A DNA stretch of 64,000 bases, from contig LR594584.1 in NCBI GenBank assembly GCA_901538445.1, positions 4,495,006-4,559,005 of the forward strand, read 5' to 3'. The translations under genes and the position numbers were made by a program. This DNA comes from Gemmataceae bacterium. GTDB taxonomy: Bacteria > Planctomycetota > Planctomycetia > Gemmatales > Gemmataceae. Below the pieces are notes generated by a model that saw only the letters and a program-made list of their open reading frames with translations, was not told where the DNA came from and searched no databases. Below, in pieces: positions 6,070 to 49,678 of the stretch; position 1 is the stretch's first letter, and each line of letters opens with the position of its first letter.

Positions 6070-6168
6070 GAAGTTACGAGTTTCAGGTTTCAGGTTTCGT
6101 GTGTCCAGTCTCGGACGGTCGCCCGGTCGGAACTTGAAACGTTAAACTCGAAACGTGAAACTCAAAAC
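6070..6168. repeat. Intergenic inverted repeat with 7-base periodic arms (TTTCAGG-like)
   Basis: The left arm (about 6070-6103) reads as successive 7-mers such as GAGTTTC, AGGTTTC, AGGTTTC. The right arm (about 6131-6168) is AACTTGA, AACGTTA, AACTCGA, AACGTGA, AACTCAA, the inverse of the left with substitutions. It is markedly AT-rich against the surrounding DNA. It sits just upstream of the LRR start, inside the divergent LRR/Cys-rich-protein gap (6060-6320), so it could influence either leader. The rest of this gap has no gene. Confidence 0.7.
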
Positions 6169-10588: not shown

Positions 10589-10646
10589 GCGAGCGGCGTT
10601 AGCCCGCCGGTTGAGGCGGAAGCACCGGCGGGCTTACGCCGCTCGC
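10589..10646. terminator. Long GC-rich palindrome between convergent genes (family shared with 15130-15203)
   Basis: The two arms (10589-10611 and 10624-10646) are complementary over 23 bases with one mismatch and enclose a 12-base loop. It lies between the ends of the cytochrome-TlpA gene and the glycosyltransferase gene, so it can serve both as a bidirectional terminator. The inner part of the stem (AGCCCGCCGGT) and much of the loop recur at 15130-15203, so this is a dispersed family rather than a single local hairpin. Confidence 0.75.
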
Positions 10647-16883: not shown

Positions 16884-17000
16884 GTGTTTAGTGTTTCGTG
16901 TTTAGTGTTTAGCAGTGCGTCCCCGGGTGAGCCACCTGCTCACGGCAGCCGTTGAGCACGCCGCCCCGAACTGAACACTGAACACTGAACACGAAACACT
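16884..17000. repeat. Inverted repeat with 7-base periodic arms (GTGTTTA / CTGAACA) in a 5' leader
   Basis: The left arm (16884-16912) is four 7-mers, GTGTTTA, GTGTTTC, GTGTTTA, GTGTTTA. The right arm (16969-16999) is CTGAACA three times and then CGAAACA. The centre (about 16913-16968) is ordinary GC-rich sequence. The right arm ends only a few bases before the AGGAG ribosome-binding site of the DUF1080 gene at 17016, so the stem would lie in its mRNA leader unless transcription begins within it. Confidence 0.75.
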
Positions 17001-17015
17001 CCCCCAGGAGTCCCG

Positions 17016-20073: not shown

Positions 20074-20132
20074 GAGTGGGTTACCGTGGGAGAAGGGAAG
20101 GAGCGAGTTGATCCGCAGAAGACGAAGAGATC

Positions 20133-20303
20133 GATCCGCAGATTTCGCAGATGACACAGATTTCATGGCAAAGGCACTTCGTTGAAGGCGAGCCGCGTCA
20201 GTTATGACGCGGGTGAATGTTTACCCGTGTGTTGACACACACGGCTCGCCCGGACACATCTCTTTTGTCTTCAAATCTGTGTCATCTGCGTAATCTGTGG
20301 ATC
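20133..20303. repeat. Nested inverted repeats: 9-base-period outer arms with an inner palindrome (20187-20250)
   Basis: The outer arms (20133-20163 and 20273-20303) contain CAGA every nine bases (GCAGATTTCG-CAGATGACA-CAGATTT) and pair over about 31 bases. Inside lies an independent palindrome (20187-20250) whose right arm, from ACCCGTGTGTTGACACACAC on, is the same as in the element at 32671-32738. This is best read as one repeat inserted in another. The position is the 20074-20320 gap between two same-strand genes, after the DUF1080 gene stop and before the sulfatase. Confidence 0.75.
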
Positions 20304-20320
20304 AATAGCTGCCGACGCTG

Positions 20321-32670: not shown

Positions 32671-32738
32671 GGGCGAGCCGTGCGTGTCAACGCACGGGTG
32701 TGCGCCGACACCCGTGTGTTGACACACACGGCTCGCCC
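32671..32738. repeat. Palindrome sharing its right arm with 20187-20250
   Basis: The arms (32671-32701 and 32708-32738) pair over about 31 bases with two mismatches and a very short loop. The right arm from ACCCGTGTGTTGACACACAC onward is identical to the inner palindrome at 20187-20250. It lies 27 bases before the start codon of the HTH-like hypothetical gene, inside the 183-base gap 32645-32827. Confidence 0.8.
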
Positions 32739-38693: not shown

Positions 38694-38706
38694 GGCGAGC
38701 CCAAAA

Positions 38707-38815
38707 TTGGCCGCAAAAAAGCACAAAAGTCACAAAATGAGACAGTAAAAAGCTAGAAGAGACCCGTAAAACGGGTCTCTTCTTTTTTGTGACTTTTGTG
38801 CTTTTTTGCGGCCAA
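38707..38815. terminator. Double hairpin terminator: perfect 31-base arms around an inner stem-loop
   Basis: The outer arms (38707-38737 and 38785-38815) are perfectly complementary and have a 9-base beat (GCAAAAAAG-CACAAAAGT-CACAAAA). Inside, 38755-38783 forms another stem (AGAAGAGACCCGT with ACGGGTCTCTTCT, 3-base loop) followed by a T-run on the + strand and flanked by A-rich sequence on the other. Located between convergent DUF1015 and DapA-family genes, this is a credible bidirectional intrinsic terminator. Confidence 0.85.
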
Positions 38816-38828
38816 TGCGTCTTCCTGT

Positions 38829-42383: not shown

Positions 42384-43751
42384 GTGGCGCGGGTTGCGGT
42401 CATCGGCGGTGGGCTGGCGGGGCTGGCGGCGGCGGCGGCGCTGGCGGCCCGCGGGTTCGGGGTCACGGTGGTCGAGTCGCGGCGGCGGCTCGGCGGCCGG
42501 GCGAGCTCGTTCCCCGACCCGGCGAGCGGTCAACTCGTCGACGCGTGCCAGCACGCGAGCATGGGGTGCTGCACGAACCTCGACCACTTCTTCGCCACGG
42601 TCGGCGTGTCCGGCCTGCTCGCCCGGCAGCCGAAGCTGAACTTCGTCACGCCGGACCGCCGGAAGAGCGTGTTCAAGGCCGACCCGTGGCCGGCCCCGCT
42701 CCACCTCGGCCGCGCGCTGCTCGGCGCGCACTACCTCACCCCCGCCGAGAAGGTCCGCGTCGGCCTCGGCTTCGCGGCGCTCCTGCGCGAGTCGCCCGAC
42801 GCCGACCCGCCGCTCAAGGACTGGCTCCTGCGGCACCACCAGACCGAGCGCACGATCGCACGCTTCTGGGGCGTCGTGCTGGTCAGCGCGCTGAACGAGA
42901 CGGTGGACCGGCTCGGGCTGAAGTACGCCCGCAAGGTGTTCGTCGACGGCTTCCTCCGGCACCGCGACGGGTTCGTCGTCCACCTGCCCACCGTGCCGCT
43001 CGGCCGGCTGTACAGCGACGAACTCCGCGGGTGGTTCGCCCGGCATGGGGTCGAGTTCCGCGAAGGCGTCGCCGTCCGCGACCTCGTCAGCACTCGGAGC
43101 GGCATCAGCCACCTCACAATGCGCGACGGCACCACTATCACCGCGGACTGGTACGTCCTCGCGGTGCCGTTCGAGCGGGTGCTCGACTTGCTCCCGGGCG
43201 AACTCGCCGCAGACCCGTACTTCGCGGGCGTCGCGAACCTGGAGCCGTCGCCGATCACGAGCGTCCACCTGTGGCTCGATCGACCCGTCACGCCGCTGCA
43301 ACACGCGGTGCTGGTCGATTGTCTGGGCCACTGGGTGTTCAACCGCGGCGAGGTCGCGCCCGGCGAGTTCTACCTCCAGGTGGTCATCAGCGCGACGCGC
43401 GACCTGAGCGCGCTGGGGAACGACGAGATCGGGTCGCGGGTCGCCGCCGAGCTGGGCCGGCTGTTCCCGGAGATGGCGCGTGCGAGGGTGCTTCGCTCGA
43501 AGGTCGTCACCGAGCGCACCGCGACGTTCAGCGCCGTCCCCGGCGTGGACCGGTGGCGGCCGCCGCAGGGGTCGCCGGTGCCGAACCTCGCGGTCGCGGG
43601 CGACTGGACCGCGACCGGCTGGCCCGCGACGATGGAAGGGGCCGTGCGCAGCGGCTACCTCGCGGCCGAGGCGATCCTGACGCGCGCCGGCCGCCCCGAG
43701 CGCGTCGTGCGCCCGGAGTTGTGGGAAGCGCGGTCGCCGGGCGAACCCTGA
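42384..43751 (+). CDS. hpnE: Hydroxysqualene dehydroxylase HpnE
   Basis: This 455-residue FAD-dependent oxidoreductase of hopanoid/squalene synthesis removes the hydroxyl of hydroxysqualene to give squalene in the HpnCDE route. An N-terminal dinucleotide-binding motif (AVIGGGLAGLAAAAALAARG) is followed by VVESRRRLGGRASSFPD. The HpnE mark DACQHASMGCCTNLDHFF comes next. The family's late motif near the C-terminus is AVAGDWTATGWPATMEGAVR. The GTG start at 42384 directly precedes the Rossmann motif. hpnC and hpnD are not in this window. The last four codons and stop lie in the left arm of a palindrome (43739-43805), so the C-terminal SPGEP may be repeat-derived. Confidence 0.9.
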   Translation: MARVAVIGGGLAGLAAAAALAARGFGVTVVESRRRLGGRASSFPDPASGQLVDACQHASMGCCTNLDHFFATVGVSGLLARQPKLNFVTPDRRKSVFKADPWPAPLHLGRALLGAHYLTPAEKVRVGLGFAALLRESPDADPPLKDWLLRHHQTERTIARFWGVVLVSALNETVDRLGLKYARKVFVDGFLRHRDGFVVHLPTVPLGRLYSDELRGWFARHGVEFREGVAVRDLVSTRSGISHLTMRDGTTITADWYVLAVPFERVLDLLPGELAADPYFAGVANLEPSPITSVHLWLDRPVTPLQHAVLVDCLGHWVFNRGEVAPGEFYLQVVISATRDLSALGNDEIGSRVAAELGRLFPEMARARVLRSKVVTERTATFSAVPGVDRWRPPQGSPVPNLAVAGDWTATGWPATMEGAVRSGYLAAEAILTRAGRPERVVRPELWEARSPGEP

Positions 43752-43805
43752 GCGTGAGCGAGGGGGTGAAGGCGCAACCCCCTCGCTCGCGCTCAGGGTT
43801 CGCCC
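43739..43805. repeat. Palindrome overlapping the 3' end of hpnE
   Basis: Arms 43739-43767 and 43777-43805 pair over about 29 bases with a 9-base loop and perhaps one mismatch. The stop codon TGA of hpnE lies inside the left arm, so the hairpin is part of its transcript and probably its terminator. The arm shares GCGAACCC with the small hairpin at 27131. Confidence 0.8.
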
Positions 43806-43846
43806 GGGAGCGATTCCTTTTCATTCCCCTCGCCCAACCGGCGCGG

Positions 43847-45288: not shown

Positions 45289-45366
45289 TTGGCGAGCCGG
45301 GAGCGTCAGCGACCGGAGTTTGCGTTCAACAAGACCTCCGGTCGCTGACGCTCCCGGCTCGCCCAA
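45289..45366. repeat. Palindrome between DUF1501 and serine hydrolase genes
   Basis: The arms (45289-45318 and 45336-45366) pair over about 30 bases with one bulged C. The left arm starts 4 bases after the DUF1501 stop codon. The right arm ends at the purine-rich RBS (AAGAGG) of the next gene. It looks like a terminator or stabiliser between two co-directional genes. Confidence 0.78.
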
Positions 45367-47079: not shown

Positions 47080-48594
47080 ATGCAGGACACGGTTTTCGGA
47101 ATGCTCGCCGGCGGCGCGGCCCTCGGCCTCCTCGCCACCATGTGGTCGAAGATCAAGGGGTTCGCGTGGCGGTTCGTCGGCATGTTCGTCCAGCGGGTCG
47201 AGATCCCGACCGAGGCCGGGCACGACGCGGTCGTCGCGTACCTGATCGCCAACTTCAAGCGGTCCCGGAACTACGACAAGATGTACGGCGCGAGCTGGGA
47301 GTACCAGCGCGACGGCCGGTACGGGCTCGTCCCCTACGAGATGTTCGGGAACCGGCTCCTGATCCTCTGGAACGGCTGGTTCCCGTTCCTGTTCACCAAC
47401 CAAGTCGAGAGCAAGGCGGCCAGCGGCAAGGGGACCCCCGACGGCTCGGCGGCCGGCATGAAGGTGTACTCGACCGTCACGTTCCTCCGCGGCACGCTCG
47501 ACATGGAGGACGTGCTCCGCAGGGCGTGCGCCGCCCGGAACAACGTCTCGTGGGCGGTCGAGGACGAGCAGACCGCGACGAAGAACCGGTTCTGCATCCA
47601 CCACGTCCCGGCCCGCGGCGACGGCAACAGCGACTACACCGGCAGCAGCGACGGGCTCGCGTGGTACCAGCAGGGGAACTACCGGCTCCTGTCGCACGCG
47701 CCCGACCAGCTCGGCAAGGCCCGAACCAACAACGGCAAGGCGCTCGACAACCTCATCTTCCCGCAGCGCGTGAAGGCGCTCATCAGCGAGATCGAGCTGT
47801 GGAGGAAGAGTAAGGACTGGTACGCCGAGAAGGGGATCGCGTGGAAGCGCGGGTGGCTCCTGTACGGCCCGCCCGGCACTGGGAAGACGGCCGTCGCACG
47901 CGCGTTCGCCGAAGACCTGAACATGCCGATCTACGTCTACAACCTCGCGGAGATGGGGAACCACGAGCTGATGAAGGCGTGGACCGAGATGCAGACGAAC
48001 ACCCCGTGCATCGCGCTCATCGAGGACATCGACAACGTGTTCCACGGCCGCGAGAACGTCGCCCGGCGGCACAGCCTGTTCCCGATGATGGTGCCCGAGA
48101 AGCGCGACGGCGACGGCGGCGACAAGCCCGGCCGCGGGCCGCTCGCGCCGCTCACGTTCGACTGCCTTCTGAACTGCCTCGACGGGGTCGAGCGGGCCGA
48201 CGGGATCTTCACCATCATCACCACCAACGACCTGACCAAGATCGACCCGGCGCTTGGGCTCCCGCGGACGCTCCCCGACGGCGCGACCGAGTTCATCAGC
48301 ACCCGCCCCGGGCGGATCGACAAGGCCGTCGAGCTGACCTACATGGAGGCGGCCGACAAGAAGCGGATGGCGGCCCGCATCCTCGGGGCGTACGAGCCGG
48401 AGCACCTGGAGATGGTCGCGTTCGTCGAAAAGTTCCAGGACCTGCAGGAGACCCCGGCGCAGTTCCAGGAGCGGTGCGCGCAGGTGGCGCTGAAGTGCTT
48501 CTGGCGCGACAGCGCCGCGCCGAAGGCGTGGCCCGAACTCGGCGACGGGATCTTCTCCGACCTCGCTCGCCGCATGATGACCGGGGAGCGGTGA
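47080..48594 (+). CDS. BCS1-like membrane-anchored AAA ATPase
   Basis: This 504-residue protein resembles mitochondrial BCS1: an N-terminal membrane helix (about 5-22, VFGMLAGGAALGLLATM), a middle 'BCS1_N-like' region (about 60-240, EYQRDGRYGLVPYEMFGN and so on) and a C-terminal AAA domain. Walker A is GPPGTGKTAVARAFA starting at residue 263, Walker B is CIALIEDIDNVFHG, and an ISTRPGRIDKAVELTY stretch carries the arginine-finger region. In mitochondria BCS1 moves folded Rieske protein across the membrane; bacterial homologues are of unknown role. An insertion with a glycine/aspartate run (RDGDGGDKPGRG) separates the Walker B and sensor regions. ATG 47080 is preceded by GGAAGG. Confidence 0.88.
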   Translation: MQDTVFGMLAGGAALGLLATMWSKIKGFAWRFVGMFVQRVEIPTEAGHDAVVAYLIANFKRSRNYDKMYGASWEYQRDGRYGLVPYEMFGNRLLILWNGWFPFLFTNQVESKAASGKGTPDGSAAGMKVYSTVTFLRGTLDMEDVLRRACAARNNVSWAVEDEQTATKNRFCIHHVPARGDGNSDYTGSSDGLAWYQQGNYRLLSHAPDQLGKARTNNGKALDNLIFPQRVKALISEIELWRKSKDWYAEKGIAWKRGWLLYGPPGTGKTAVARAFAEDLNMPIYVYNLAEMGNHELMKAWTEMQTNTPCIALIEDIDNVFHGRENVARRHSLFPMMVPEKRDGDGGDKPGRGPLAPLTFDCLLNCLDGVERADGIFTIITTNDLTKIDPALGLPRTLPDGATEFISTRPGRIDKAVELTYMEAADKKRMAARILGAYEPEHLEMVAFVEKFQDLQETPAQFQERCAQVALKCFWRDSAAPKAWPELGDGIFSDLARRMMTGER

Positions 48595-48607
48595 TCGAGA
48601 AGAGAGT

Positions 48608-48774
48608 GATCCACAGATTTCGCAGAAGACACAGATTTTCAGACACAGAGGACAGAGGACAGAGGACAGAGGACAGAGGACAGAGGACAGAGGAGCGTAC
48701 CTCCGGTCTTCGACTGATCTCTGGCTTCTGTCCTCTGGTTCTTAATCTGTGTCCATCTGCGTAATCTGCGGATC
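48608..48774. repeat. Nested inverted repeat: 9-base outer arms and seven exact CAGAGGA 7-mers
   Basis: The outer arms (48608-48637 and 48744-48774) pair and show CAGA at 9-base steps. Between them, CAGAGGA occurs seven times exactly in tandem (48646-48694), followed by a shorter inverse stretch with TGTCCTCTGG (48729-48738). It lies between the BCS1 gene end and the desaturase gene end and overlaps the desaturase stop codon. It is likely to form a large hairpin and end transcription from both sides. Confidence 0.85.
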
Positions 48775-49678
48775 AAACTGTCTTCTGGATCAGGTTCTTC
48801 GCGAGCGCCTTGGGGGTCGGTTCGCGGATGTCCCACACGAGACCCACGAACCCGAGCGTGCGGATCACGTAGTAGCTCACGTCCACCTCCCACCACTTGA
48901 ACCCCTGGCGGGCGCAGCTCTGGTAGTGGTGGTGGTTGTTGTGCCAGCCCTCGCCGAGGGTGAGGATCGCGGCCCACCAGCAGTTCTTGCTGTGGTCGGT
49001 CGTGTTGTACCGCCGGGTACCGAACAGGTGGCACGCCGAGTTCACCAGGAACGTCCCGTGGTACAGCAGGATCGTGCTGACCAGGAACCCCCACACGAGC
49101 CCGCTCATGCCGTCGATCGCGTAGCACGCGGCCGCGAGGAGCAGCCCCGGCACCCAGGTGAGGTACGAGTCGAGCGCCCGCAGCTCGGGGAACCGGGCGA
49201 AGTCCTGCATCGTGTCCTTCGGCGCGTTCCGCGACTTGCTGCTGATCACCCAGCCGACGTGCGCCCACCACACCGACTTCTTGATCGGCGAGTGCGGGTC
49301 CTCGTCCTGGTCCGAGTGCTTGTGGTGGTGCCGGTGGTGCCCGGCCCACCACAGCGGCCCCTTCTGCATCGCCGAGCACCCGAGCCACGCCAGGACGAAC
49401 TGGAACCACCGGCTCGTCTTGTAGGTGCGGTGGGCGAAGTACCGGTGGTACACCCCGGTGATGCCGAACATCCGGGCGACGTACAGGCCGACGCACAGTG
49501 CCGCCGACGTCCACGTCAGCGGCACGAAGAACGGCGCGACCACCGCGGCCACGTGGAGCAGGATGAACGGGACCGGCTTCAGGACGCGCTGGATCCGGCT
49601 GACGTTCGGGGCGGGTGGTAGGGTGATGTTGGGGAGCGCGGGGAGCACTCCCGAGGGTGCTGCGGTCGAAATGGCCAA
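48773..49678 (-). CDS. Acyl-CoA / fatty acid desaturase (delta-9 type)
   Basis: This 301-residue integral membrane di-iron desaturase has the three histidine boxes in order: HRYFAHRTYK, HHRHHHKHSD and GEGWHNNHHHYQS. Hydrophobic segments of about four helices flank them. It introduces a cis double bond into acyl chains, using O2 and an electron donor, and so adjusts membrane fluidity. No ferredoxin or rubredoxin gene is adjacent. Start: ATG 49678. Its stop codon lies at the end of the repeat at 48608-48774, so the last codons come close to the repeat arm. The divergent neighbour is the SRPBCC gene. Confidence 0.93.
   Translation of the reverse strand: MAISTAAPSGVLPALPNITLPPAPNVSRIQRVLKPVPFILLHVAAVVAPFFVPLTWTSAALCVGLYVARMFGITGVYHRYFAHRTYKTSRWFQFVLAWLGCSAMQKGPLWWAGHHRHHHKHSDQDEDPHSPIKKSVWWAHVGWVISSKSRNAPKDTMQDFARFPELRALDSYLTWVPGLLLAAACYAIDGMSGLVWGFLVSTILLYHGTFLVNSACHLFGTRRYNTTDHSKNCWWAAILTLGEGWHNNHHHYQSCARQGFKWWEVDVSYYVIRTLGFVGLVWDIREPTPKALAKNLIQKTV

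Follow-up and report, generated by a model that had tools for sequence, protein, structure and literature searches.

We are fairly confident that the strong hairpin at 48607-48775 of the window (the whole analysed stretch of 64,000 nucleotides from a 7.86-Mb, four-contig Gemmataceae genome) is a non-autonomous composite without a gene, built from two nested hairpin elements and lying between converging genes. It is best read as a gene-less hairpin of a heptad class nested in a gene-less hairpin of a nonad class, between two stop codons. Full-length members of the heptad class would carry a gene for an S23/23S-IVP (Avd-like) four-helix bundle, and those of the nonad class a GxxExxY PD-(D/E)XK-type gene between arms of ~9-base units. 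The evidence comes from the anatomy of the hairpin, its dispersed copies, the link between repeat period and gene, gene-bearing copies with the same arms, the agreement between the two arms of a copy, and the entry of heptad elements with a gene into stop-codon sites of cyanobacterial plasmids.

Anatomy of the window hairpin

The upstream gene (47080-48594, + strand, stop codon 48592-48594) is followed by the left outer arm of the hairpin, TGATCCACAGATTTCGCAGAAGACACAGATTTTCAGACA (48607-48645, + strand), which reads CAGATTTCG-CAGAAGACA-CAGATT with a 9-base step and pairs with the right outer arm (48739-48775, + strand). The final three bases of the right arm are the stop codon (TGA, - strand) of the downstream converging gene (48773-49612, - strand; start from simple codon-score gene calls). 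Enclosed by these arms is the inner hairpin (48646-48738), composed of seven exact CAGAGGA units forming its expanded left arm (48646-48694, + strand), the apex (48695-48713, + strand) and a degenerate right arm of ~3 units (48714-48738, + strand). The initial annotation had described seven perfect units, outer arms with a 9-base step and a short inverse stretch after the array, and each of these was found as described, TRF returning a period of 7, 7.1 copies and 100% matches for the array. The seven units face the partner CTGATCTCTGGCTTCTGTCCTCTG; since the opposite arm offers partner sequence for only ~3 of them, the CAGAGGA array is confined to one arm. Folding of the transcript, which had been proposed as a check, gave -101.3 kcal/mol for the window hairpin, compared with -58.4 (sd 4.1) for 200 shuffles, none of which was as good.

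The inner arms are inverted, degenerate 7-base units with the YAG direction inward, as in the heptad class, and the outer arms are inverted ~9-base units like those of a gene-bearing nonad locus of the same genome (L062, see below). The window contains no match to PF05635 (S23/IVP), that is, no such gene between arms, and the copy is therefore filed only as a gene-less heptad derivative; equally, there is no match to PF13366 (GxxExxY) in the window, so the outer hairpin is filed as a gene-less nonad derivative. An Rfam search of the window gave no match. The hairpin sits between two protein genes and not in a 23S rRNA gene, the location of a 23S intervening sequence (IVS). Its stem follows stop codons, and by eye there is no T run after 48775 or, on the other strand, before 48607. 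Once installed, the hairpin may provide the two neighbouring genes with a 3' end, acting as terminator or stabiliser.

Several further hairpins of these kinds are present in the window, and the 18-base arm pattern has seven matches in it against 0.16 expected. The recurrence of the outer arms near 20133-20303, also pointed out in the initial annotation, proved to be real: a sister nonad hairpin without a gene lies at 20130-20306 (fold -106.1, z -10.7) and holds another hairpin, GGCGAGCC..GGCTCGCC, at 20187-20250. A gene-less nonad-style hairpin with CCGCAAAAAAGCACAAAAGTCACAAAA arms lies at 38706-38816, and gene-less heptad-style hairpins were recognised by eye at 6079-6164 (GTTTCAGGTTTCAG / CTTGAAACGTTAAAC arms) and 16884-17001 (GTGTTTAGTGTTT / AACACTGAACACTGAACAC arms). 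The window also holds more perfect hairpins of other families (20187-20250, 32671-32738, 43737-43807, 45291-45363 and 10589-10646), many of which end in GGCGAGCC / GCGAACC; one type is also nested in five nonad hairpins of the genome.

Gene-less and gene-bearing copies across the genome

The pattern CAGATTNCRCAGA has 73 matches in the genome and its reversed control none. The nonad arm motif was found at 44 places, as 29 facing pairs and 15 single arms. Within the 29 pairs, the two arms of one element agree at 36.8 of 48 positions, compared with 32.4 ± 0.9 when right arms were permuted (1000 permutations, maximum 35.2 of 48). Three CAGAGGA units in tandem gave 67 genome matches, against none for the reversed pattern, and arrays of at least three units occur at 16 places, with 3-20 units. 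Five of these places are inside nonad pairs (3, 5, 7, 10 and 20 units) and 11 outside exact nonad pairs (3-14 units), although one of the latter, L192, adjoins a degenerate nonad arm. These differing unit numbers lend indirect support to the expansion of units that had been suggested for the window copy. As a separate observation, the three-unit pattern has 91 and 40 matches in two genomes of the same genus (G013 and G018), far above most relatives.

The initial annotation had further proposed that the 7-mer core grew inside a pre-existing hairpin. This is not quite what we found: the 7-mer hairpin is a separate element with a recurrent apex (GGAGCRTACC...CTGATCTCTG). Of the 16 arrays, 11 lie outside exact nonad pairs; a heptad core or array is present in 11 of the 44 nonad loci; and the same ends flank an S23-family gene at another place in the genome. 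Wherever the apex motif was seen, the array is always on one and the same flank of it. An element nested in one of another type, with later slippage on one arm, fits better than growth from nothing, and the seven exact units would have grown by replication slippage on that arm.

The 44 nonad loci lie in 31 tandem, 11 convergent and 2 divergent gene spacers, compared with 19, 8 and 12, respectively, for all spacers of the window. Divergent spacers are therefore rarer at nonad loci (2/44 vs 12/39, p=0.002), the orientations resting on gene calls by a simple codon score. Dispersed, intergenic and palindromic copies, more of them gene-less than gene-bearing, are also typical of the REP/REPIN palindromes that are moved by a RAYT (Y1) transposase (PMC3733652), and the hairpins could be of this type: the genome contains four matches to Y1_Tnp, the same source reports GTAG-tagged repeats from Planctomycetes, and some relatives have, by eye, a GTAG-headed hairpin in the orthologous gene slot. 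We regard this explanation as very unlikely. The window hairpin ends in TGATCC, with no GTAG or CGTC tag at the base of the palindrome, and the arm ends of these hairpins in general are without either tag; the arms are periodic and much longer than a REP; the genes inside belong to other families; and no paired arms of the heptad or nonad kind came up in a keyword listing of the regions around the four Y1 genes.

Hairpins of these kinds enclose genes of both families in the same genome (GxxExxY, PF13366, and, in several cases, S23/IVP, PF05635), which favours the nested-element reading. In L062, a GxxExxY gene is flanked by CAGATTACACAGAAGACACAGA arms of the CAGATTACA-CAGAAGACA type. Its protein was modelled with a pLDDT of 95.8, and the nearest structure is 4ic1 (SSO0001), which we take to be Cas4-like; in 21/21 GxxExxY proteins the motif residues G, E and Y and the PD-(D/E)XK-type residues D, E and K are invariant. 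L066 holds an S23 gene enclosed by CAGAGGA-type ends, and these two ends share an identical 24-base outer block. This block recurs in gene-less CAGAGGA elements, with mismatches at the two ends of 0/1 (L190), 0/2 (L032), 0/3 (L188), 3/1 (L185) and 0/5 (L189); in none of the other 6 of 11 gene-less elements does it stand at both ends. The L066 model (pLDDT 94) matched the structures 2gsc (TM 0.92) and 2rld, with five chains each, and Avd 4dwl (TM 0.84), so that the predicted protein appears similar to the Avd protein of diversity-generating retroelements (PMC10053308). The encoded proteins, supplied in trans, may recognise the repeated units and help to move or copy the elements. As many copies are gene-less, host enzymes rather than either protein could move them.

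Repeat period and the gene carried

Beyond this genome, S23/23S-IVP genes lie within inverted repeats of 7-base units and GxxExxY genes within inverted repeats of ~9-base units. Each locus was scored by the best inverted repeat between the two flanks of the gene, with a threshold of 36. Degenerate seven-base inverted repeats enclose the S23/23S-IVP gene in 113 of 155 loci from at least 15 phyla (phylum-level names counted from the record titles of above-threshold scan loci), and ~nine-base ones enclose the gene of the GxxExxY nuclease family in 59 of 85 loci; the same score was reached by 1 of 308 displaced-window controls. The 155 loci are four partly overlapping sets. Overlap between sets is seen, for example, in the L266 protein, which is 100% identical to query row L109, and in the L329 arms, which equal those of L110. 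In each set, between about a quarter and a half of the genes are without arms above the threshold, which counts against the nested-element reading.

For Planctomycetes, the threshold was exceeded at 21/29 GxxExxY loci (displaced 1/58) and 20/28 IVP loci (displaced 0/56), after truncated loci (3/32 and 6/34) and the weak match L069 had been dropped. Loci fetched afterwards for validation, 28 and 40 taken in listing order from longer lists, gave 24/28 for GxxExxY and 30/39 for IVP; L226 was also left out before counting. In the bacterial genome scan, 52/76 IVP loci were above the threshold (displaced 0/142; 4/80 dropped before counting), as were 14/28 GxxExxY loci in genomes reached via the scanned IVP loci (displaced 0/52; 2/30 dropped). 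Among plasmid IVP loci, a set of 12 out of 36 records, 11/12 were above the threshold; the displaced controls belong to the Planctomycetes and bacterial-genome sets. When flanks were cross-paired between loci, the threshold was reached in 1/29, 4/28, 0/28 and 1/39 cases, 4/28 and 1/39 being the validation values for GxxExxY and IVP, respectively; the reason is that some loci have arms similar to those of others. GxxExxY genes were also found at four loci in viral contigs and in 8 plasmid records.

The arms of the two families differ in period. IVP arms showed high autocorrelation at lag 7 (0.64-0.79) and lag 14 (0.64-0.77), with other lags at or below 0.40. In all 62 IVP arms of the bacterial scan that scored at least 32, lag 7 or 14 was the best, as it was in 15/20 and 22/30 arms of the Planctomycetes and validation scoring. 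Heptad arms have a median length of 33 nt, and their direction is conserved in 102/102 arms, with YAGTGGn reading inward. In GxxExxY arms the autocorrelation was highest at lag 9, at a loose 0.42-0.43, and lag 9 was best in 12/21, 13/24 and 7/16 arms; the period is loose here and the nonad consensus weak (2.62 vs 2.02 bits when shuffled), a further point against the nested-element reading. On an Azospirillum plasmid, the arms around an S23 gene are CAGAGGACGGATGACAGAGGACGG, of the same 7-mer type as the window array, and S23 genes on Nostoc plasmids lie between TAGGGAG or CAGGGAA arms.

Such palindromes could in principle be made by replication itself, with slippage of heptamers and strand switching that inverts an arm, the enclosed genes being bystanders. 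The exact arrays of 3-20 units agree with this, and heptamers are reported to be over-represented in bacteria, and slippage has been put forward (PMC4692102). We judge this account most unlikely, since it predicts neither the outer blocks common to gene-bearing and gene-less copies nor the link of period to gene, under which the lag of the other class is rare (lag 9 best in 2/50 IVP arms, lag 7 in 1/45 GxxExxY arms).

Insertion, turnover and related systems

MITEs are short and gene-less, with inverted ends like those of a gene-bearing relative, and are flanked by a short target duplication. The hairpins described here are similar in that short gene-less copies have the ends of a gene-bearing relative, but their ends share period and direction and not a fixed sequence; to our knowledge, no transposase family occurs in hairpins of these classes. 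Among the S23 plasmid records compared, which cover the heptad class outside this genus, whole S23 elements occupy a site on cyanobacterial plasmids in some records and are missing from it in others, the flanks being ~90-98% identical. These elements insert at stop codons: in all four cases the site falls at the stop codon of the gene upstream. At site A, a 428-bp element is associated with a 5-bp duplication, GTAAT, overlapping the stop codon, and the junction is identical in both empty records compared; this is the only junction with a clean duplication. Site C2 (506 bp) has a 3-bp overlap. At site C1 (418 bp), TTCTA can be seen by eye on either side with one base missing, which the strict count scores as no duplication. 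Site B is messy, and one record there has a gene-less heptad hairpin (L401). A megablast search around L384 found no empty site. The window copy, too, probably arrived by insertion. Two contexts on plasmids are recorded here as side observations: cas6 and cas4 flank an S23-family gene in two genera of cyanobacteria (L388 and L390, Anabaena and Pseudanabaena plasmids), and the two ribonucleotide reductase genes of a Nostoc edaphicum plasmid have an S23 element between them, on the strand opposite to theirs (L384).

The same slots turn over among relatives. The slot after purH (a gene identified by its sequence) holds the GxxExxY hairpin of this genome; in 13 of 17 species of the genus, this slot gave a palindrome score of at least 41, shuffles reaching up to 23. 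The slot of a further species, G005, also holds a facing pair, its score being only 10 because the slot was cut at 200 bases. The arms in this slot can be sorted into at least eight groups between which no similarity was detected; several are nonad-style, and a GxxExxY gene is present there in three species (G000, G005 and G016). After the upstream gene of the window, relatives have other hairpins (by eye), and G009 keeps the same downstream gene adjoining it. Separately, GTAG-headed REP-like hairpins occur in the orthologous gene slot of two relatives (L137 and L142), and facing nonad arms ~1.4 kb apart, a larger span than a GxxExxY element, occur at G016:C1:556506-557950.

Unrelated hairpins in one slot could also result from selection for any 3' hairpin. 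The window hairpin might then be only a terminator or 3'-end hairpin, its stem selected while the sequence drifts and short units slip, with no mobile element involved; the location after stop codons, the few divergent spacers and the strong folds are in line with this as well. We nevertheless consider it improbable, because the sequence common to dispersed copies extends far beyond a stem, arms of the same sequence carry genes, and plasmids show whole units present or absent. Nor does it predict a period of 7 with one gene family and of ~9 with the other.

Heptamers of this kind are already known from two systems. In the 23S IVS of Coxiella burnetii, an S23p gene lies inside a stem of terminal inverted repeats, with three or two tandem heptamers GACAGAT depending on the strain; it is termed selfish, and earlier proposals of a mobile element are cited (PMC4990558). 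It shares with the heptad class the IVP-family gene, the inverted ends and the tandem heptamers, but it is located within rRNA, from which RNase III removes it, and the available text concerns a single element, with no period rule, gene-less dispersed copies or GxxExxY. In our set, unlike in Coxiella, a screen of the surroundings of the 155 IVP loci for six 23S rRNA signature motifs gave only two single weak matches, which we took as chance. The heptamers GGGNATC / GGGGA(C/T)T of Xanthomonas and Nostoc are dispersed and intergenic, with a variable unit number, 70-75 inverted pairs per genome in Xanthomonas, a location near stop codons and few copies between divergent genes (PMC4692102). They thus resemble the heptad class in being seven-base, intergenic and paired in inverted orientation near stop codons; they were interpreted as G-quadruplex repeats, and the terms four helix and transposase are absent from the available part of that paper. 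Our search, confined to open-licence PMC articles, found no report joining these heptamer systems or describing GxxExxY hairpins, and searches with the repeat letters returned unrelated texts.

A wider proposal, towards which we are almost evenly disposed while leaning slightly against it, is that these hairpins form a domain-wide, unrecognised class of miniature mobile elements in which the repeat period is the recognition code. TRAP, which reads triplets, one unit per subunit, offers a model. Pentameric Avd-like S23 proteins might similarly read 7-base units, for example one per subunit, the median arm of 33 nt being close to 5 x 7, and GxxExxY nucleases might read ~9-base units. With nothing but period, direction and pairing being read, unit sequences would be free to change. 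Full elements would enter at stop codons and leave gene-less copies behind as 3' gene ends, and the 23S rRNA IVS would be those that ended up in rRNA.

No role has been established for S23/IVP and GxxExxY, two widespread families. If each belongs to hairpins of its own period, both would gain a testable job. In that case, too, the rRNA IVS would no longer be an oddity, the heptamer repeats of several phyla would share a common origin, and a source of new bacterial gene ends would have been identified.
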